From Mesorhizobium sp. PAMC28654 (GTDB lineage Bacteria > Pseudomonadota > Alphaproteobacteria > Rhizobiales > Rhizobiaceae), in NCBI RefSeq assembly GCF_020616515.1, contig NZ_CP085135.1, forward strand, positions 6,123,001 to 6,187,000: DNA of 64,000 nucleotides, given 5' to 3'. The position numbers and the translations under genes were made by a program. Positions 54,561 to 63,836 of the stretch are shown in pieces. The notes beneath the pieces were generated by a model. The model made no database searches, was not told the origin of the DNA, and was given only the letters and a program-made list of their open reading frames with translations. Positions within the stretch are counted from its first letter, which is position 1; each line of letters starts with the position of its first letter.

Positions 54561-54695
54561 TGCTCAATCCTCTTTGGCCGAGAATGGACGCAACCGATTA
54601 ACAAATTCCGGACGCGGGCGGGCAGGACGTCATGCGCGCGGCAATCGAATCCAGCCAACATGGATTGGTTTGGCTACCGGTGTCTCGCTGGCCGA

Positions 54696-55946
54696 TCAGT
54701 TTTGACCGGCCAGCGCCGACAGGCTGCCGAGAAGCTTCGTCTTGTCCTTGCCGATCATCAGCACACCGCTGTCCGGGGCCAGCAGGGCGGAGAACGGCAA
54801 CATCGCCGCGCCGATCGGCGAGGCCTCGGGTCCGAACTGCCCCGACACGATTTCCGGCGCCACGATGCCTATGGCGCTGATCCGGTTGAACTGGGTCTGG
54901 ACCCTTGCCAGAAGTTCGAGATGGATCTGCCGCGGCAGGATGCTGTCGAGAACGATCGCCTCGATGTCGATGACGGAGGTGATGGCGATGATTGCCTCGA
55001 CCAGCGCGTTCGCGCAATCGTCGATCCATTCGAACAGCGGCTCGCGCGCGCCCGGCGGCAGCGGGTCCAGTTCCCGCACGCGATTGATCTCGACGCCGCG
55101 CGACTTGAGATGATTGACCAGCACATAGATCGAGGCGCGATGCAGCAGGCTCTGGTAGCGCGCCGGCTTGGCCGCCACCGAATCGAGGCTTGAAGGCGAG
55201 ACCGGCAGAGGGCCGAGCGCGGCGCTGTTGCCGTGCGGTCCGGTATGGACCCTGCCGCCTTGCACCAGCCCGCCGCCGACGAAAGTGTCGATCGAAATAT
55301 GCATGAAATCGCGGAACCGGGCGCCGGCCCCTTGGATCAGTTCGGCGAGCGCCGCCGATGACGCGTCGTTTTCCACGAAGACCGGCGTCTTCGGCCTCGT
55401 GGCGAAGAATGCTGTCAGGTCGATTGCTTCCCAGCGGTTGCCAAGATCGTCGGGAAAGCCGAGTTCCTCGCTCCAGCCGCCGAGGAAATAGGGCGAAGCG
55501 ATGCCGACGCCGACGATGCTGGCATCGTCAAGCCCGTCGACCAGCTTTTCGAAATTAGCCAGCGACATGTTGCCGGCCTTGAGCACCAGATCGGGATCCG
55601 GAAAGCGGTACTCGTGCGACTCGCGGGCACGGACCTCGCCGGCGAAGTCGACGAGCACTGCTTCCAGCGCGCGTCGGCCGATCTTGATGCCAACGCTGTA
55701 GATCCGCTCCGGCGCAAGCCTGTAGAGAGTGGACGGCGATCCACGCTGTCCGAACCTTTTTCCCACTTGCTTTACAAATCCAGACGACTCCAGCCCGTCA
55801 ACAATGGCGGCGACCGCAGCCGGGGTCAGATTCGCGGCGCGTGCCAGGTCCGGCTTCGATGCCTCTTTCAGGCGCCGAATGGCATCAAGCACGAAGCGCT
55901 CATTGTAATGCCGGACTTTGACTGAATTGCTGCCTTTTCCAGACAA
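54696..55946 (-). CDS. ROK-family transcriptional regulator of the adjacent sugar transporter
   Basis: A 416-residue protein: N-terminal winged helix (residues 10-70; ASKPDLARAANLTPAAVAAIVDGLESSGFV) followed by a ROK sugar-kinase-like fold (FVENDASSAALAELIQGAG, FMHISIDTFVGGGLVQGGRVHTGPHG). The zinc motif CxCGxxGC of most ROK proteins is missing. It is divergent from the transporter operon at 56145, with about 200 bases between; it probably represses it in the absence of a sugar or derivative. Confidence 0.9.
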   Translation of the reverse strand: MSGKGSNSVKVRHYNERFVLDAIRRLKEASKPDLARAANLTPAAVAAIVDGLESSGFVKQVGKRFGQRGSPSTLYRLAPERIYSVGIKIGRRALEAVLVDFAGEVRARESHEYRFPDPDLVLKAGNMSLANFEKLVDGLDDASIVGVGIASPYFLGGWSEELGFPDDLGNRWEAIDLTAFFATRPKTPVFVENDASSAALAELIQGAGARFRDFMHISIDTFVGGGLVQGGRVHTGPHGNSAALGPLPVSPSSLDSVAAKPARYQSLLHRASIYVLVNHLKSRGVEINRVRELDPLPPGAREPLFEWIDDCANALVEAIIAITSVIDIEAIVLDSILPRQIHLELLARVQTQFNRISAIGIVAPEIVSGQFGPEASPIGAAMLPFSALLAPDSGVLMIGKDKTKLLGSLSALAGQN

Positions 55947-56144
55947 AACTGGCGTCTCCCTAACTATTCTCGCGGAGCGAGGCTGGCCGCCCGCAACCTT
56001 GAAACGGCTACGATCGAGGCACTCCGGCCGCCCCTGTCCGCGAGGCGACAGTGCGCGCCGGGATCGTGGAAGTCAATTTTCCTGTTGCGACTTTCGCCTA
56101 TTTAATATAGCAAATTGAAAAAATAACTACCCCAGGGAGGGAGA

Positions 56145-58709
56145 GTGCTGCACGTGGGCGCATATGGCGAAACCGATGCCGCGATGGAGAGGGCGGCCGT
56201 TCCCGTTGCCCTGGTTCAGGTGACAAAGGCCTTCGGCGGCACGATCGCCCTCAAGGACGCGTCCTTCGAATTGCGCTCCGGCGAGGTGCTGGCACTGCTT
56301 GGCGAAAATGGCGCTGGCAAGAGCACCTGCGTGAAGCTGCTGGCCGGCGTGCACTCCCCAACCGACGGTCATGTCGAAGTCGACGGCAAGCCCGTGGTTT
56401 TTCGTTCCCCTCACGACGCTCAGGCCGCCGGCATTGCGGTCATGCACCAGCATCCCGGCCTGTTCCCGGATCTTTCAGTCGGGGAAAATATCTATCTCGG
56501 CCACATGTTGCGCGACCGCTTCGGCGGCATCGACAACGCCGCCATGCTTGCTGGCGCGCGCAAGGTGCTTGCGACGGTCGGCCTGGACGTTCCTGCCGAA
56601 ACGCGGCTAGGCGCGCTGCGCACCTCCGAACAACAACTCGTCGAGATCGCCCGCGCGCTATCGCTCAACGCGCGCGTGCTGATCATGGACGAGCCCACGG
56701 CGGCCCTCTCGCAGCGCGAGGTTGAGCGGCTTTTCACCGTCGTCGCCGATCTGAGGTTGCACGGCGTGGCGATGATGTTCGTCGGCCATCGCATGGACGA
56801 AATCTTCCGCATCGCCGATCGCATCGCGGTGCTGCGTGACGGGCGCCTCATCGGCGTCAAGCCGAAGGCAGAGCTTGGTCGCGCCGCAGCCATCAGCATG
56901 ATGGTCGGCCGCGAAGTGACCGACCTCTATCCCGAACGGCGCCACGCGCCTGGCGCGCTGGTGCTGGAGGCGAGGGGGCTTTCGCACGCCGGCGGGTTTT
57001 CCAACATCGACCTCAAGCTCCATGCCGGAGAAGTGCTCGGGCTTGGCGGCCTGGTCGGCAGCGGGCGGACCGAGATCGCGCGCGTGCTGTTCGGCATCGA
57101 CCGGCAGGATGCCGGCGAAATTCTCATCGACGGCCAGGCCATGCGCTTCGCATCGGCGCGCGACGCCATGAACGCGCGCATCGCCTATGTCTCGGAAGAC
57201 CGCATGGGCCAGAGCCTGGTGATGGATTTCTCCATCCTCGACAATGCGGTGCTGCCGGTTCTAGACAAGGCCGCCCATTTCGGATTCTACGGCACGGATC
57301 GTGCCATCGATCTGGTCTCGGATTGGCTGAAGCGCATGAAGCTGCGCTTCTCCGGTTATGGGCAGCCGGTCAAGGAATTGTCCGGCGGCAACCAGCAGAA
57401 GGTCGTGCTGGCCAAATGGCTGCGCACCGAGCCGCGCGTACTCATCCTCGACGAGCCGACACAAGGCATCGACGTCGGCACCAAGGCGGAAGTGCACGCG
57501 ATGATCGCGGACCTTGCCGCGCAAGGCATGGCGATCATCCTGATCTCCTCCGAGATGCCCGAGCTCATCGGCATGTGCGACCGCATCGTCGTTCTGCGCG
57601 AAGGACACCAGACGGCCGAATTCGCCAGGGAAGACGCCACCCAGGAAAAAGTGCTGGAGGCGGCGACCAAGACCAGCGAGCGCGTCGATGCGTCAGCGCG
57701 GGCGGAGCGTGCCGCCTTCAAGGAGAAGAAAAAAGCACCGCTCGATTTCCTCAAGCGGCGGGAGTTCGGGCTGCTCGCCGCGATGCTGGCGGTCGCCATC
57801 CCGGTTACCATCATCAATCCGCGCATGGTGAGTGCGGCAAACCTGACCGCCATCTCGATGGATGCCGCGCTGCTGATCGTCGCGGCACTCGCCCAGATGC
57901 TGGTGCTGATCACGCGCAACATCGACCTTTCGATCGCCGCAGTGATCGGCCTTTCGGCCTACATGGCGGCCAGTATGGTTCAAGCCTATCCAGGGCTCGA
58001 CATCGGCGTCGGTCTGGCGACCGCTTGCGCGGTCGGTGGCGTCGCCGGGCTGCTCAACGGCCTTGTCGTCACCAAGGGAAGGATTCCGGCCATCGTCGTC
58101 ACGCTGGGCTCGATGTCGATCTTTCGCGGCTTTAATTCGCTGTGGGCGGCCGGCAACCAGATCAGTGCCGACGAGGTTACGCAGGCCTGGCTTGACATGA
58201 CCGGACTGAAGATCGCCGGCGTGCCGCTGATCGTCGTCATTGCCATGGTCATTCTGTGCGCCGGCTATGTGCTGCTCTATCGCACGGCCATCGGGCGCGA
58301 ACTGTACGCCACCGGCTCCAACCCGGATGGCGCGCGCCTTATCGGTATCCCCGTCGACCGGCGCATCCTCCTGGCCTTCGGCGTGGCTGGAGTGCTCGGC
58401 GGCCTGTGCGGGGCGCTCTGGGCATCCCGCTACGCCACCATAGATGCCCGCGTCGCGGTCGGCTTCGAACTCACGGTGATCGCTTCGGCGGTCGTCGGCG
58501 GCGTCGCCATTCGCGGCGGTTCGGGCACACTGCTCGGTGTTATCCTCGGCGCGCTCACCCTACTGGTCATTAAGAACGGCCTGACGCTGGTGCGCGTTGA
58601 CCCGCTGTGGCTGCAGGGCGTCTACGGCCTGGTGATCCTGGCCGCCATAGGCATCGATAGCTTCATTGTCCGGCGTGCGGAGCAGGCAAGACAGGCGAGG
58701 GCGAGATGA
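56145..58709 (+). CDS. Sugar ABC transporter: RbsA-type double ATPase fused to RbsC-type permease
   Basis: An 854-residue fusion. The first 510 residues are a complete RbsA-like pair of ABC domains: Walker A GENGAGKST at 53-61, Walker B LIMDEPTAAL, then a second, degenerate domain (LGGLVGSGRTEIA, ELSGGNQQKVVL, ILDEPTQGIDVG). From about residue 530 it continues in frame as an RbsC-like permease with eight or more helices (LTAISMDAALLIVAALAQMLVLITRNIDLS ... RIPAIVVTLGSMSIFRGFNSLW). Start GTG 56145 follows AGGGAGGGAG. A second permease overlaps by four bases. Sugar unknown (ribose/rhamnose/autoinducer-2 class). Confidence 0.93.
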   Translation: MLHVGAYGETDAAMERAAVPVALVQVTKAFGGTIALKDASFELRSGEVLALLGENGAGKSTCVKLLAGVHSPTDGHVEVDGKPVVFRSPHDAQAAGIAVMHQHPGLFPDLSVGENIYLGHMLRDRFGGIDNAAMLAGARKVLATVGLDVPAETRLGALRTSEQQLVEIARALSLNARVLIMDEPTAALSQREVERLFTVVADLRLHGVAMMFVGHRMDEIFRIADRIAVLRDGRLIGVKPKAELGRAAAISMMVGREVTDLYPERRHAPGALVLEARGLSHAGGFSNIDLKLHAGEVLGLGGLVGSGRTEIARVLFGIDRQDAGEILIDGQAMRFASARDAMNARIAYVSEDRMGQSLVMDFSILDNAVLPVLDKAAHFGFYGTDRAIDLVSDWLKRMKLRFSGYGQPVKELSGGNQQKVVLAKWLRTEPRVLILDEPTQGIDVGTKAEVHAMIADLAAQGMAIILISSEMPELIGMCDRIVVLREGHQTAEFAREDATQEKVLEAATKTSERVDASARAERAAFKEKKKAPLDFLKRREFGLLAAMLAVAIPVTIINPRMVSAANLTAISMDAALLIVAALAQMLVLITRNIDLSIAAVIGLSAYMAASMVQAYPGLDIGVGLATACAVGGVAGLLNGLVVTKGRIPAIVVTLGSMSIFRGFNSLWAAGNQISADEVTQAWLDMTGLKIAGVPLIVVIAMVILCAGYVLLYRTAIGRELYATGSNPDGARLIGIPVDRRILLAFGVAGVLGGLCGALWASRYATIDARVAVGFELTVIASAVVGGVAIRGGSGTLLGVILGALTLLVIKNGLTLVRVDPLWLQGVYGLVILAAIGIDSFIVRRAEQARQARAR

Positions 58710-59695
58710 AAAAGCTCCTCCGATCGATCGATTTCTGGGATCTGCTGCTGGCGAGCGCCTGCCTCGCCATCTTCCTCTACGCGGCGATCTTCGTGCCGAA
58801 TTTCGTCTCGGGTTTCAACCTCTCGCAACTGGCCGCGAGTGCCTCGGAAAAGGCCTTGCTGATCCTGCCGATGACGCTGCTCATCATTACCCGCGAGATC
58901 GACCTGTCGATCGCCTCGATGCTGGCGCTGACGTCCGTGGTCTTTGGCCTGCTTGTCCAGGCCGGCATGCCGACGCTGGCGGCAATCCCGCTGACGCTCG
59001 TCGCCGGAGGCCTGCTCGGCGCCTTCAACGGCTATCTGGTCTCGAGGCTGGGGTTGCAGTCGCTGGTGGTGACGCTCGGCACCATGGCGCTCTATCGCGG
59101 TGTTGGCTACATCCTGCTCGGCACCGGTTCGGTCAATATCCTGCCGCCGGCGGTCGTCGATTTCGGCATCAACAACCTGCCGGGCACCGAGATACCATGG
59201 ACCATCGTGCCCTTCCTGCTGCTGGCGCCGGTGTTCGCGGTCGTCCTGCAGAAGACGCCGACCGGCAAGCGCATCTACGCGCTCGGCGGCAGTCCCGAAG
59301 TGGCGCGCTATTCCGGCATCAACACGCGCCGGATGGTGTTGAACCTGTTCGTCGTCTCGGGCGTGGTCGCGGCGATCGCCGGCATCGTCTATACCGCGCG
59401 CCTTTCCAACGCCCGCGCCAACAATGCGCTTGGCATGGAGCTCGACGTCATCACCATCGTGCTGCTCGGGGGCGTCAGCGTCTTTGGCGGCAAGGGCCGC
59501 TTGACAGGCGTTATGCTGGCGCTGGTCTTGATCGCCATCATCCGCAACGTGCTGGCGCTCAACCAGATCGGCGGTGACGCGCAGGGCATGATCATCGGCA
59601 TGCTTCTGATCGGCTCGCTGCTGGTCGGCAATTACTGGCGCTCCGCACAGGAGAGGCTCTCAAGATCGCGCGTCTTGCGCGAGACCAAGGGGTGA
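58706..59695 (+). CDS. RbsC-type sugar ABC permease, second subunit
   Basis: A 329-residue permease. ATG overlaps the stop of the fusion gene (ATGA), so expression is coupled. Family pattern: LLIITREIDLSIASMLALTSV, GLQSLVVTLGTMALYRGVGYILLG, ALGMELDVITIVLLGGVSVFGGKG. It would pair with the fused permease as a heterodimer, as RhaP/RhaQ or LsrC/LsrD do. Confidence 0.93.
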   Translation: MKKLLRSIDFWDLLLASACLAIFLYAAIFVPNFVSGFNLSQLAASASEKALLILPMTLLIITREIDLSIASMLALTSVVFGLLVQAGMPTLAAIPLTLVAGGLLGAFNGYLVSRLGLQSLVVTLGTMALYRGVGYILLGTGSVNILPPAVVDFGINNLPGTEIPWTIVPFLLLAPVFAVVLQKTPTGKRIYALGGSPEVARYSGINTRRMVLNLFVVSGVVAAIAGIVYTARLSNARANNALGMELDVITIVLLGGVSVFGGKGRLTGVMLALVLIAIIRNVLALNQIGGDAQGMIIGMLLIGSLLVGNYWRSAQERLSRSRVLRETKG

Positions 59696-59743
59696 TGTCG
59701 GGCCCCTTCCTTCAAGCCCGAATTTTCAGACGGAGGAGTCACA

Positions 59744-60745
59744 ATGAAAGCGTTTAGACTAGCCCTGCTCGCATCCGCGGTTCTCCTGGCGCCTGCCTCG
59801 CTGGCCTTCAGCCAGGAATGCGCCAAGGCACCGGTAACGGTCGGCTTCCTGCCCAAGCTCGACACCGATCCCTACTTCAAGGTTGCCCAGCAGGGCGCCG
59901 AGGAGGCCGCGAAGGAAATCGGCGGCAAGGCAATTCAGGTCGCGCCCTCGCAGGCAACGGCGGAAGCGCAGATCGATTTCATCAACAGCCTGGTCTCGCA
60001 GAAGGTCGGCGTGATCGCGATTTCCGCCAATGATGCGAACGCCGTCGCCCCGGCGCTGAAGCGAGCCGCACAGCAGGGCGTCAGGGTCATCTCTTACGAT
60101 TCCGACGTCGCCGGCGACGCCCGCTCGATCTTCGTCAACCAGGCCAAGGGCGACAGCCTGGCCGAGATGATGCTGGAAAGCGCCTACAATCTGACCGGCG
60201 GCGACGGTGAGTTCGCGATCCTCTCATCGACGCCGACGGCCACCAACCAGAACGCCTGGATCGACTTCATGAAGAAGAAGATGGCGGCCGAGCCGAAATT
60301 CGCCAAGATGAAGCTGGTCCAGGTCGCCTATGGCGAGGAGAGCGAGCAGATCAACCAGCAGCAGGCGCTGGCGCTGGTGCAGGCTTTCCCCGACCTCAAG
60401 GCGATCATCGTTCCGGCCGGCATAGGCCTGCCCGCGGCGGCGCGCGCACTGGAGGAAGCCGGCATGATCGGCAAGGTCAAGCTGACCGGCCTCGCTCCGG
60501 CCACGCTGATCTCGAAATACATCAAGGACGGGGCCGCGCAGGACATCTGGTGGAACGTCTCCGATCTCGGCTACCTGACCTACCAGGCCGCCCAGGCGCT
60601 CGCCCAGTGCAAGATCACCGGCAAGGAAGGCGACAAGTTCACCGCTGGCCGGCTCGGCGAATACACGATCGGCGCCGGCGGCGAACTGATCCTGGGGCCG
60701 GCCAAGATCGTAACCCCCGCCAATCTGGCTGAGTTCAAGTTCTGA
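59744..60745 (+). CDS. Sugar ABC transporter substrate-binding protein (RhaS/LsrB-like)
   Basis: A 333-residue periplasmic binding protein with signal peptide ending SLAFS before QECAKAP. Peripla_BP_4 pattern: VTVGFLPKLDTDPYFKVAQQGAEEAAKE, VGVIAISANDANAVAPALKRAAQQGVRVISYDSDV. Its closest groups are rhamnose-type and autoinducer-2-type binders; the ligand cannot be set from sequence alone. Third gene of the operon. Confidence 0.92.
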   Translation: MKAFRLALLASAVLLAPASLAFSQECAKAPVTVGFLPKLDTDPYFKVAQQGAEEAAKEIGGKAIQVAPSQATAEAQIDFINSLVSQKVGVIAISANDANAVAPALKRAAQQGVRVISYDSDVAGDARSIFVNQAKGDSLAEMMLESAYNLTGGDGEFAILSSTPTATNQNAWIDFMKKKMAAEPKFAKMKLVQVAYGEESEQINQQQALALVQAFPDLKAIIVPAGIGLPAAARALEEAGMIGKVKLTGLAPATLISKYIKDGAAQDIWWNVSDLGYLTYQAAQALAQCKITGKEGDKFTAGRLGEYTIGAGGELILGPAKIVTPANLAEFKF

Positions 60746-60828
60746 TCTCAGACCTCGAAACCCCGGCGGGCGCCGGCTCCATCCGGCGCCCTCTCTCAAC
60801 TCTTTCATTCGAACATGCGAGGGCGACA

Positions 60829-61590
60829 ATGAAAATGTTGCTTGCAGGCGAAACCTTCGCGGCGACAACATCGGTCGCCATCGGCGGCGATGTGCTCACA
60901 AGCGCGACCTGGACAAATGGTGCGACGGCCTTCAACGCCGCGCTGGCCATCGAGGGCATCACCGTCACGCAGATCGGTGGCGAGCGCTGCGCCGCGGAAT
61001 TTCCCTATGACCTTGAGGCGCTCGCCCACTATCAGGCTGTGGTGATCTCCGATGTCGGCGCGCTGACATTGCTGGTCACGCCGGATGCCCGCGCCGGGCG
61101 TGTCGGCGTCAACCGCTTCGAGGTCCTGAAAGCCTACGTCGAAGGTGGCGGAGGGCTGATGCTGGCCGGCGGCTACATGGGCTTTCAGGGCATGTTCGGG
61201 ACAGCGCGGTTCTATGACACCCCAGTCGAGGATGTGTTGCCCGTCCGCTGCCTGCCGTTCTGCGACGGCATGGAGGTGCCACAAGGCCTGCAGGCCTCCA
61301 TCCTGCAATCGTCCCATCCGATTTTTGCGGGCGTGGAGGGGCCGTTGCCGCCGATCCTCGGTATGAACAAGCTGGATTTCAGGCACGACGGTTCGTCCCG
61401 GCTTCTGGCGACCTGTCACCATCGCGGCACGGACTGGCCGCTTCTTGCCGTTCGCAACCATGGTCGTGGCCGGACGGTCGCCTGGGCGACCGACATCGGC
61501 CCGCACTGGCTGTCGCAGGATTTTCTCGCATGGCCGCTTTACGGCAAGCTGATGGCCAACATCGTCCGCTGGCTGGCCGGGGACGAATAG
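60829..61590 (+). CDS. GATase1-like (PF07090-type) protein of the transporter operon
   Basis: A 253-residue class-I glutamine-amidotransferase-like fold. The place of the nucleophile elbow reads GGGLMLAGGYMGFQGMFG, with no cysteine, so glutaminase activity is unlikely. Later DWPLLAVRNHGRGRTVAWATDIGPHW is typical of the PF07090 (STM3548-like) family. It is the last gene of the operon and probably acts on or binds the imported sugar or a derivative. Function unknown. Confidence 0.82.
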   Translation: MKMLLAGETFAATTSVAIGGDVLTSATWTNGATAFNAALAIEGITVTQIGGERCAAEFPYDLEALAHYQAVVISDVGALTLLVTPDARAGRVGVNRFEVLKAYVEGGGGLMLAGGYMGFQGMFGTARFYDTPVEDVLPVRCLPFCDGMEVPQGLQASILQSSHPIFAGVEGPLPPILGMNKLDFRHDGSSRLLATCHHRGTDWPLLAVRNHGRGRTVAWATDIGPHWLSQDFLAWPLYGKLMANIVRWLAGDE

Positions 61591-61638
61591 GAAGGCTTTC
61601 CGTGACTCCAGCGCATGGCTGCGCCGGGCGAAAACCCC

Positions 61639-62041
61639 TTATGCACCTTTGCCGGAATTGCTCGCGGGCACAGCCACGCACTTGTCGCACAGGCCGCGAA
61701 TCTCGATTGTCGTGCTCGCGGCCCAGAAACCCGATTGCCTGCACATGTCCTGTATCAGCGGGCGGAGATGGCCGACGTCGATTTCGGCGACTGTCATGCA
61801 TTGTTCGCAGATGGCGTGGCCGGGCAGATGGTCGATGGCGCCGGGGTGCGCAGGCAATGAAGGCCTTCAGGCTTTCCAGCCGGTGCGCCAGGCCGCTGGT
61901 GCACAAATGGTCGAGCGCGCGGTAGATTTGCATCGGTCCGCGAAGTCCGCGCGGGCGCAGTCTGTCGAGGATCTGGTATGCGCTGAGTGGCGCCGTCGCC
62001 TGGGTGAGTACGCCGAGAACGAGTTCCTCGTTCCTGGTCAT
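61639..62041 (-). pseudogene. zur: Zur-like Fur-family zinc regulator, broken by a 1-base frameshift
   Basis: The first frame (from ATG 62041) encodes a Fur winged-helix domain (LSAYQILDRLRPRGLRGPMQIYRALDHL) up to SLKAFIAC; the next frame continues with HPGAIDHLPGHAICEQCMTVAEIDV and ends in IRGLCDKCVAVPASNS, which carries the structural zinc Cys pair (CEQC and CDKC). They meet near 61850 where one base too many separates them; removing it gives a Zur of about 134 residues. The gene is the last of the znu operon. Real loss or consensus error. Confidence 0.83.
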
Positions 62042-62096
62042 TGCAATGCCTTCAGCGGGCAAGACTTCAGCGGGCCAATCTTCACCGGGCCAGTCT

Positions 62097-62969
62097 TCAT
62101 CGGAGTTGGCCGCTGTCCTCGAGCGTTTCCGTCATTCGCGGTTCACCGGCCGTCGGGCGGCCCATGCGGCGCGATGCGGTGAGGCGCTCGGCGTAGCCGC
62201 TTGCGAGATAGGCCGCTGCACCCAGTGCGGTGATCCAGAAGCTTGTCGGCCAGTCGGTCCGGTAGGCGAATGCCAGGCTGATCCAGGCGATGGCGACGGC
62301 AAGCGCCATGGACACCAATATGCCGGCGAAGACGCCGCGCGTCAGTCTGAAGGCGGTTGCCGCCGGGGCCACCATCAGCGCGAAGACCAGCAATACGCCG
62401 ACGATCTGGGCGGCTTCCGCCGTGGCGAAGGCGACGAGGACCATGAACAGGGTCGAGACCAGGGTGACCGGCACGCCGCGCGCCTCGGCAAGCTCCGGCT
62501 GCAGGCTGGCGAACAGCAGCGGTCGGGCGATCACCACCAGCACCACCAGGATCGCCACGGCCAGCACGGCAAGGATGATGACGGTGCGCAGGCTGATGCC
62601 CAGCACATTGCCGAACAGCACATTCGTCGCCTGCCCGGCGAAGGCGGTGTAGAAATGCAGGAACAACAGCCCAAGGCCAAGCGAGAGGGTGAGCACGATG
62701 CCGATGGCGACGTCGCGATGCGCGCGCTCGCCGAGCAGGCCGATGCCGATGCCGGCGATGACGGTGAACACGGTCAGGCCGAGGAACGGCGACAGGCCGA
62801 TGAGGCCGGCCCCCGTGGCTCCAGAGAAACCGACGTGGGTGAGCGCGTGGCCAGCAAAAGTCTGGCCGCGCAGCACCAGGAAATAGCCGACAGCACCTGC
62901 GACGATGCCGACCACCGTGCAGGCATAGAAGGCGTTGCGCATGAACTCGTAGTCAAACATCGTGGACAT
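62097..62969 (-). CDS. znuB: Zinc/manganese ABC permease (ZnuB-like)
   Basis: A 290-residue permease of the ABC-3 family with eight or nine helices (YFLVLRGQTFAGHALTHVGFSGATGAGLIG, ERAHRDVAIGIVLTLSLGLGLLFLHFYTAF, GVLLVFALMVAPAATAF). The start overlaps the chimeric ATPase gene by 17 bases; a start at MFDYEF (62960) is equally possible. Complete and apparently functional. Confidence 0.92.
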   Translation of the reverse strand: MSTMFDYEFMRNAFYACTVVGIVAGAVGYFLVLRGQTFAGHALTHVGFSGATGAGLIGLSPFLGLTVFTVIAGIGIGLLGERAHRDVAIGIVLTLSLGLGLLFLHFYTAFAGQATNVLFGNVLGISLRTVIILAVLAVAILVVLVVIARPLLFASLQPELAEARGVPVTLVSTLFMVLVAFATAEAAQIVGVLLVFALMVAPAATAFRLTRGVFAGILVSMALAVAIAWISLAFAYRTDWPTSFWITALGAAAYLASGYAERLTASRRMGRPTAGEPRMTETLEDSGQLR

Positions 62970-63762
62970 GGGCGGCGCCCTCCAATTCGATATCGTCGGC
63001 CATGACGAAGATCCTGCCCGCGACGCGCATCACAGTGATCGGCGTGCCGTAGAGCCGCGACAGGACGGGGCCGTTGATGACCTCGTCGACGCTGCCGATC
63101 GCCGCCTTGCCGTTGCCGAGATAGAGCACGCGGTCGACGGCGCGCATGAGCGGGTTGATCTCGTGCGAGCAGAACAAAATTGCGATGCCGAGCCGCTGCG
63201 CGACCTCGTGCACGAGGTCGATGATGACGCGCTGGTGCGCGGCGTCGAGGCTGATCAGCGGCTCGTCGAGCAGCAGGAGCCTGGGGTCGCCGATCAGCGC
63301 CTGGGCAATGAGGATGCGCTGGCGCTCGCCGCCGGAAAGCTCCGCCAGCGGACGCCGGGCAAGGTCGGCGGCACCGACCTCCTCCAGCGCCTTCCAGGCG
63401 GCCTCTCTCTCGGCGGCGTTGGCGACCGGCCAGCCCCAGCGATGGCCGCCGGCGGCGGTGAGCACGAAGTCGACGCCGCTGATGCCGGGATGGGGCAGGG
63501 CGCGGCGCGCCTGCGGCATGTAGCCGATGGTCGGATTGCCGCGCGTCGGCGGCCGGCCAAGCACGGAGATCGCTCCACCAGCCGGCCTGACAAGGCCAAG
63601 GATCGCGCGCAGCATCGTCGTCTTGCCGGCGCCATTGGCGCCGAGGTCGCCGTAGAAGTTCTCGGCCGCAACGATGTTTATCTTCTCTTCGGCCCTGGCG
63701 GCATTGCCAGCCAAAAGCGGCGCTGCAACGAGCAGTGCCGCCAGCAATGGAACGGAACGCAT
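62953..63762 (-). CDS. Chimera: ZnuA signal peptide and N-terminus fused to a ZnuC ATPase lacking its N-terminus
   Basis: A 269-residue product. Residues 1-40 are the start of a ZnuA binding protein: signal peptide MRSVPLLAALLVAAPLLAG ending NAARA, then EEKINIVAAENFYGDL, the first strand of ZnuA. From there the chain continues directly with GANGAGKTTMLRAILGLVRPAGG: ZnuC from its Walker A onward, with Q-loop YMPQ, signature LSGGERQR, Walker B LLLLDEP and switch SHEINPL. The ZnuC part before Walker A (about 30 residues, including the A-loop) is absent. GAGGAG precedes ATG 63762. The product would be sent to the periplasm and cannot work as an ATPase there. Confidence 0.88.
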   Translation of the reverse strand: MRSVPLLAALLVAAPLLAGNAARAEEKINIVAAENFYGDLGANGAGKTTMLRAILGLVRPAGGAISVLGRPPTRGNPTIGYMPQARRALPHPGISGVDFVLTAAGGHRWGWPVANAAEREAAWKALEEVGAADLARRPLAELSGGERQRILIAQALIGDPRLLLLDEPLISLDAAHQRVIIDLVHEVAQRLGIAILFCSHEINPLMRAVDRVLYLGNGKAAIGSVDEVINGPVLSRLYGTPITVMRVAGRIFVMADDIELEGAAHVHDV

Positions 63763-63816: not shown

Positions 63817-63836
63817 TGTTATGTAATACTATAACA
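63817..63836 (-). promoter_or_regulatory. Candidate Zur operator upstream of the znu operon
   Basis: TGTTATGTAATACTATAACA: 6-base perfect arms TGTTAT/ATAACA around an AT-rich core, 54 bases upstream of the operon start. It stands out in AT content from the surroundings and resembles alphaproteobacterial Zur boxes (GTTATA-type palindromes). Confidence 0.7.

Follow-up and report, generated by a model that had tools for sequence, protein, structure and literature searches.

What became of the first gene of a metal importer operon in Mesorhizobium sp. PAMC28654, which begins like the gene for a ZnuA-type binding protein and ends like the gene for an ABC transporter ATPase? It occupies positions 62953 to 63762 on the minus strand of the window (the whole stretch of 64,000 nucleotides that was analyzed) and forms a single open frame of 269 amino acids (aa), from an ATG at 63762 to its stop codon. 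From the comparisons below, we consider it highly probable that the recent loss of some 863 bp, private to this strain's lineage, fused two genes of an accessory and probably zinc-type importer, that the change was probably inactivating, and that the loss can be tolerated.

The two parts of the gene were delimited by comparison with relatives. Residues 1 to 40 of the fusion (MRSV...INIVAAENFYGDL) match the N-terminal 40 residues of the binding protein (293 aa) of L033, the closest relative, and residues 41 to 269 correspond to codons 36 to 264 of the 264-aa L033 ATPase, from the Walker A motif GANGAGKT onward. The binding-protein remnant (63643 to 63762, minus strand) comprises a signal peptide recognized by eye, the mature N-terminus, and the first strand, and it retains its start codon, preceded by what appears by eye to be a ribosome-binding-like site, GAGGAG. 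The ATPase part (62953 to 63642, minus strand), defined by Pfam, alignment, and structure models, lacks the N-terminal hairpin ahead of Walker A and keeps the motifs that we take to be Walker A, the Q-loop, LSGGERQR, Walker B, the D-loop, and the H-loop, with its key motif residues in invariant columns of the alignment with relatives. The fusion scored 84.6 bits against PF00005 (cut-off, 25), as an ABC importer ATPase with the core motifs should. The complete N-terminal beta subdomain is missing, since the ABC_tran match starts only at residue 40, at position 17 of the 137-position profile, and the hairpin was not predicted with confidence. A search of the fusion for the ZnuA-type binding-protein domain PF01297 gave no match, whereas the intact binding protein (L033:3336-4217:-) was identified as a PF01297 ZnuA protein with 183 bits.

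The permease of the operon was used to find relatives. With E values up to 1e-60 and one genome per species, it was detected in 19 of 146 genomes of the genus, including that of the window. All 18 others had a separate binding-protein open reading frame (ORF), of 292 to 293 aa in the 12 relatives for which it is listed from the MR start and listed from an earlier start codon in the other 6, and 17 of the 18 had an intact ATPase ORF, the exception being L044. A second set of 42 permease-related loci from named genomes, which partly repeats the genus relatives, had both genes in series in 34 cases. The remaining eight, which are uninformative or distant, comprise five truncated where the stretch ends (L076, L078, L086, L093, and L094), one second copy that is only partial (L090), and two distant loci (L096 and L097). 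The fusion joint occurred in none of the 42 loci. The relatives thus carry intact genes (18 of 18 for the binding protein, 17 of 18 for the ATPase, and 34 of the 42 loci). The stretch absent from the window measures 863 bp relative to L033 and to 10 of the 18 relatives, with a range of 863 to 909 bp over all 18. The sequence-only reading had proposed an in-frame ZnuA-ZnuC deletion chimera that had lost roughly 0.9 to 1 kb; the separate genes of the 18 relatives, together with the removal of most of the binding protein and of the ATPase N-terminus, bear out the chimera, and the proposed length comes close to that found here.

L033 belongs to genome G046, which was narrowly the closest to the window genome over a 1,437-base fragment of rpoB (2362 bits versus 2344 for the next two, all at 96% and with 141 other genomes matched). 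The operon of G046 lies at the matching locus: the BLAST pieces run colinearly from the permease and ATPase genes through the promoter to the upstream gene, with a gap at the joint. That upstream gene, of 371 aa, is presumably a cation antiporter. The intact accessory operon of G046 resembles that of the window in its binding protein-ATPase-permease order, its location, and its DNA (92% identity over the ATPase and permease genes), and the window differs from it by the absence of 863 bp spanning the first two genes. The comparison with related Mesorhizobium recommended in the sequence-only reading therefore yields an intact operon at the same locus in G046 and the fusion in none of 18 relatives. 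The genomes next in the rpoB ranking (G134, G021, G036, and G029) had no permease at E values up to 1e-60, so the operon is patchily distributed. One further relative, G051 (L044), has the same operon with its ATPase gene likewise disrupted; the lesion in this single-contig genome differs in being the loss of one base in a G run at the start of the ATPase gene, with no deletion, and is possibly a sequencing error. Separately, in L032 (G102:C2:56254-56619) and L090, a second, partial permease match (122 residues, 89% identical) lies about 12 kb away from the full operon. All that precedes it in L090 is the C-terminal 55 residues of an ATPase, which makes it a truncated second copy. A closer copy of the operon was sought among plasmid records and rejected, as the best record has three separate genes and matches 65% of the query, with 78.9% identity.

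Downstream, the fusion gene overlaps the gene for the permease of the same operon (62097 to 62969, minus strand), which is intact at 290 aa and matches PF00950 (ABC-3) with 160 bits. This is followed by a zur-like regulator gene (61639 to 62041, minus strand) that is frameshifted at 61849, where codon 65 is reduced to one base relative to the 133-aa homologue P0241. The gene now runs in two frames, with residues 1 to 64 being 94% identical to P0241 and residues 66 to 131 being 84% identical in the other frame; this frameshift may stem from a sequencing error. The contigs that carry P0241 and the ATPase P0004 are both 16,009 bases long, and from these equal lengths we infer that an intact sister operon that includes the zur-like gene probably exists.

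We then considered how widespread and how old the deletion is. In a collection of 5.8 billion entries, 7,998 candidates sharing the most words with the fusion were scored, and 120 of the 6,306 matches were listed. The fusion is represented by one protein on one contig and is unique among these 120, the other 119 covering 84 to 89% of it. Of 32 listed hits aligned with the fusion, 30 start with the ATPase N-terminus and 2 (P0098 and P0109) start inside the ATPase. The fusion was thus absent from other genomes as far as these 120 listed of 6,306 matches, the 18 relatives, and the 42 loci are concerned, and the idea of a fusion family was dropped, since neither the 120 matches listed nor the 42 named-genome loci contained a member. 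The deletion is known from one strain, and each species of the genus set is represented by a single genome; further strains of the species may exist, as the permease cluster P0121 has 9 member sequences. Substitutions since the split from L033 were polarized by the state that most of the other 17 relatives share, with no tree and with a relative standing in for the ancestor. The comparison extended to 225 codons of the ATPase gene and 235 of the permease gene, with one difference per gene being ambiguous. On the window branch there were 14 synonymous and 5 nonsynonymous changes in the ATPase gene and 23 and 6 in the permease gene, and on the L033 branch there were 15 and 2 and 14 and 14, respectively. 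The window branch looks purifying and gives no indication of relaxed selection after the deletion. Both the fusion and the zur-like frameshift are therefore taken as recent, and long-standing decay is unsupported by the substitution counts. The same pattern would also fit genes that are still in use. In the L033 permease, the nonsynonymous changes on the G046 branch cluster at residues ~120 to 139 of the compared stretch, as if that protein were diverging or relaxed.

The joint itself (63642 to 63645, minus strand) consists of CTCG, common to both parent genes, at the point where 863 bp are absent relative to G046. It reads ...GGCGACCTCGGCGCC... in the window, ...GGCGATCTCGCCC... in the binding-protein parent of L033, and ...GGCCTGCTCGGCGCC... 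in the ATPase parent. Of the 18 relatives, 9 have exactly CTCG in common between the two sides, 2 have TCTCG, and 7 share no more than the G. At random pairs of breakpoints in the two L033 genes, the probability of sharing at least 4 nt is 0.030, and CTCG microhomology at the joint is suggestive only. The GGC-GCC microhomology put forward from the sequence alone did not hold up: that motif is missing from the binding-protein side, which reads CTN-GC(C/T) in 18 of 18 relatives, and CTCG is what the two sides share. The longest exact word common to the two L033 parent genes has 11 nt and lies away from the joint. With only 4 nt at the joint, this speaks against a repeat-driven collapse of the assembly and fits a deletion by short homology.

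These data bear on the strongest of the competing explanations, according to which the genes of the living strain are intact and the assembly lost the 863 bp through misassembly or a consensus error, or represents a rare culture variant. Such an origin would suit a fusion that is unique among the 120 listed of 6,306 hits and gene parts that bear no sign of long decay. Overlaps of 4 and 11 nt are, however, too short for repeat collapse, and misassembly across a repeated motif, which the sequence-only reading had left as an option, is unlikely given that the 11-nt word lies away from the joint of a single 6.7-Mb contig. The assembly, at 6.70 Mb, is 99.99% complete, none of 150 scored ATPase-domain matches (296 candidates) contained a stop codon, which is a weak test for frameshifts, and the same operon carries a second lesion, the zur-like frameshift, itself possibly a sequencing error. 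Taken together, these results make an artifact or culture variant improbable.

A deletion that keeps the reading frame might also have produced a working protein. The ATPases of the relatives start with an N-terminal hairpin that holds a conserved tyrosine (consensus, VTLxYGGRRVLSDVSF), and in the model of the intact ATPase P0002 this region forms strands at residues 2 to 13 and 16 to 27 (block pLDDT, 88 to 96). In the model of the fusion, residues 1 to 30 have block pLDDT values of 37 to 43 with a low-confidence strand at residues 10 to 16, residues 121 to 240 have values of 82 to 94, and a strand is formed at residues 36 to 41; both models were built from alignments of the same 33 sequences, in which the N-terminus of the fusion is aligned with ATPase N-termini. 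Since the signal peptide is kept, the hairpin is lost, and the binding protein is gone, metal import by this operon should fail: the fusion should be directed to the Sec pathway by its signal peptide and should not power the permease. The opposite proposal is that the first strand of the binding protein replaces the ATPase strand ahead of Walker A, so that the permease is powered or regulated anew by a form that is made without the signal peptide or escapes export. It draws on the preserved frame, on FYGDL-GANGAGK retaining the F-x-G-x-L spacing of FVGLL-GANGAGK, on the modeled strand at residues 36 to 41 besides the low-confidence one at 10 to 16, and on the purifying pattern of the window branch. 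Against it stand the retained signal peptide, the loss of the hairpin with its conserved tyrosine, an operon left with no binding protein at all, and the absence of such a chimera from every relative examined (18 relatives, 42 loci, and the listed hits). From the codon after the start to the joint, the frame also contains two TTG codons but not a single ATG. We regard a working chimera as very improbable, and an inactivating deletion remains our preferred explanation.

The identity of the parent importer was assessed with NCBIfam equivalog profiles. The fusion scored 115.7 bits against AztA (cut-off, 220) and 95.5 against ZnuC (306), and the permease scored 131.4 against AztB (280) and 63.8 against ZnuB (284). 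The intact L033 proteins were also below the cut-offs, with 95.1 of 350 for the binding protein against AztC and 135.3 of 220 (AztA) and 128 of 306 (ZnuC) for the ATPase. As the sequence-only reading had proposed a search of the rest of the genome for another znuA/znuC, the genome was examined, and an intact AztABC-type operon (L051) was found at 1.64 Mb, with AztA at 261.4 bits (cut-off, 220), AztB at 318.6 (280), and AztC at 360.3 (350). It contains the only PF01297 match of the genome, which has three PF00950 matches. Zinc uptake as such therefore need not be lost. The claimed loss of the zinc system stands insofar as the deletion is private and probably inactivating, and it must be narrowed to an accessory operon (19 of 146 genomes) that falls below the ZnuABC and AztABC cut-offs. 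The window operon belongs to the same type of metal ABC importer as AztABC (NF040873, NF040871, and NF040870), of which the genome has this intact copy; it differs in that the window and L033 proteins score under the cut-offs and in that the core operon has the order ATPase-permease-binding protein. PMC3668242 describes zinc-repressed znuCBA genes in two Mesorhizobium isolates. By gene order alone, the C-B-A arrangement of Mesorhizobium metallidurans (PMC3668242) is that of L051, whereas the broken operon of the window, in A-C-B order, is a second system. In Sinorhizobium meliloti, znu deletion mutants were fully complemented by that species' own znu genes, according to PMC3360030.

Sharing of an ATPase is known in other ABC importers, and the window permease, intact and with a purifying pattern, might work with an ATPase and a binding protein borrowed from the complete related system in the same genome, leaving the operon only partly lost, but the two systems are divergent (131.4 bits to AztB, with a cut-off of 280, versus 318.6 for the core permease), and this is the least credible of the explanations.

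The preferred explanation, a tolerated inactivating deletion, can be set out as follows. The parent operon, an accessory one with the gene order binding protein-ATPase-permease, would probably have served zinc import under Zur control, as suggested by the zur-like gene at the end of the operon and by a Zur-box-like imperfect palindrome upstream of the fusion gene (TGTTATAGTATTACATAACA in minus-strand reading; 63817 to 63836; 14 of 20 positions self-complementary), to which Zur may bind. A 25-nt box around this palindrome matches L033 at 23 of 25 positions and the other 17 relatives at only 13 to 17 of 25; a Zur box common to all relatives was rejected, as only L033 gave a good match and the best in the core operon was 15 of 21. 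A recent, lineage-specific deletion of ~863 bp would then have joined, at the 4-nt CTCG, the first 40 codons of the ZnuA-like gene to codons 36 to 264 of the adjacent ATPase gene. The product, with a signal peptide and with neither the body of the binding protein nor the N-terminal hairpin, would leave the permease unpowered. That the zur-like gene of this very operon is frameshifted suggests that the locus is being lost. This loss would be tolerable through the intact AztABC-type importer and a second zur-like gene, which has an open frame at 5.017 Mb; the N-terminus of the window zur-like gene, used as a query, found matches in all 146 genomes of the genus.

The lesion looks like ordinary gene decay, and the general picture is unchanged by it. 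It provides an example of how a single lineage is apparently losing an accessory metal importer, through an in-frame deletion and a broken regulator. It is also a warning for annotation, in which "metal ABC transporter ATPase" would be the name given to a fusion that is probably non-functional. Two features of the surroundings were recorded. On the side of the operon away from the promoter, about 7.5 kb of the window (~54630 to 62183) had no matches in the corresponding 19-kb stretch of G046; besides the zur-like gene, this segment contains a PF13407 transporter cluster and a GATase1-like gene. Between the permease and zur-like genes, positions 62050 to 62103 hold 3.6 copies of a 15-bp tandem repeat, CTTCAGCGGGCCAGT.
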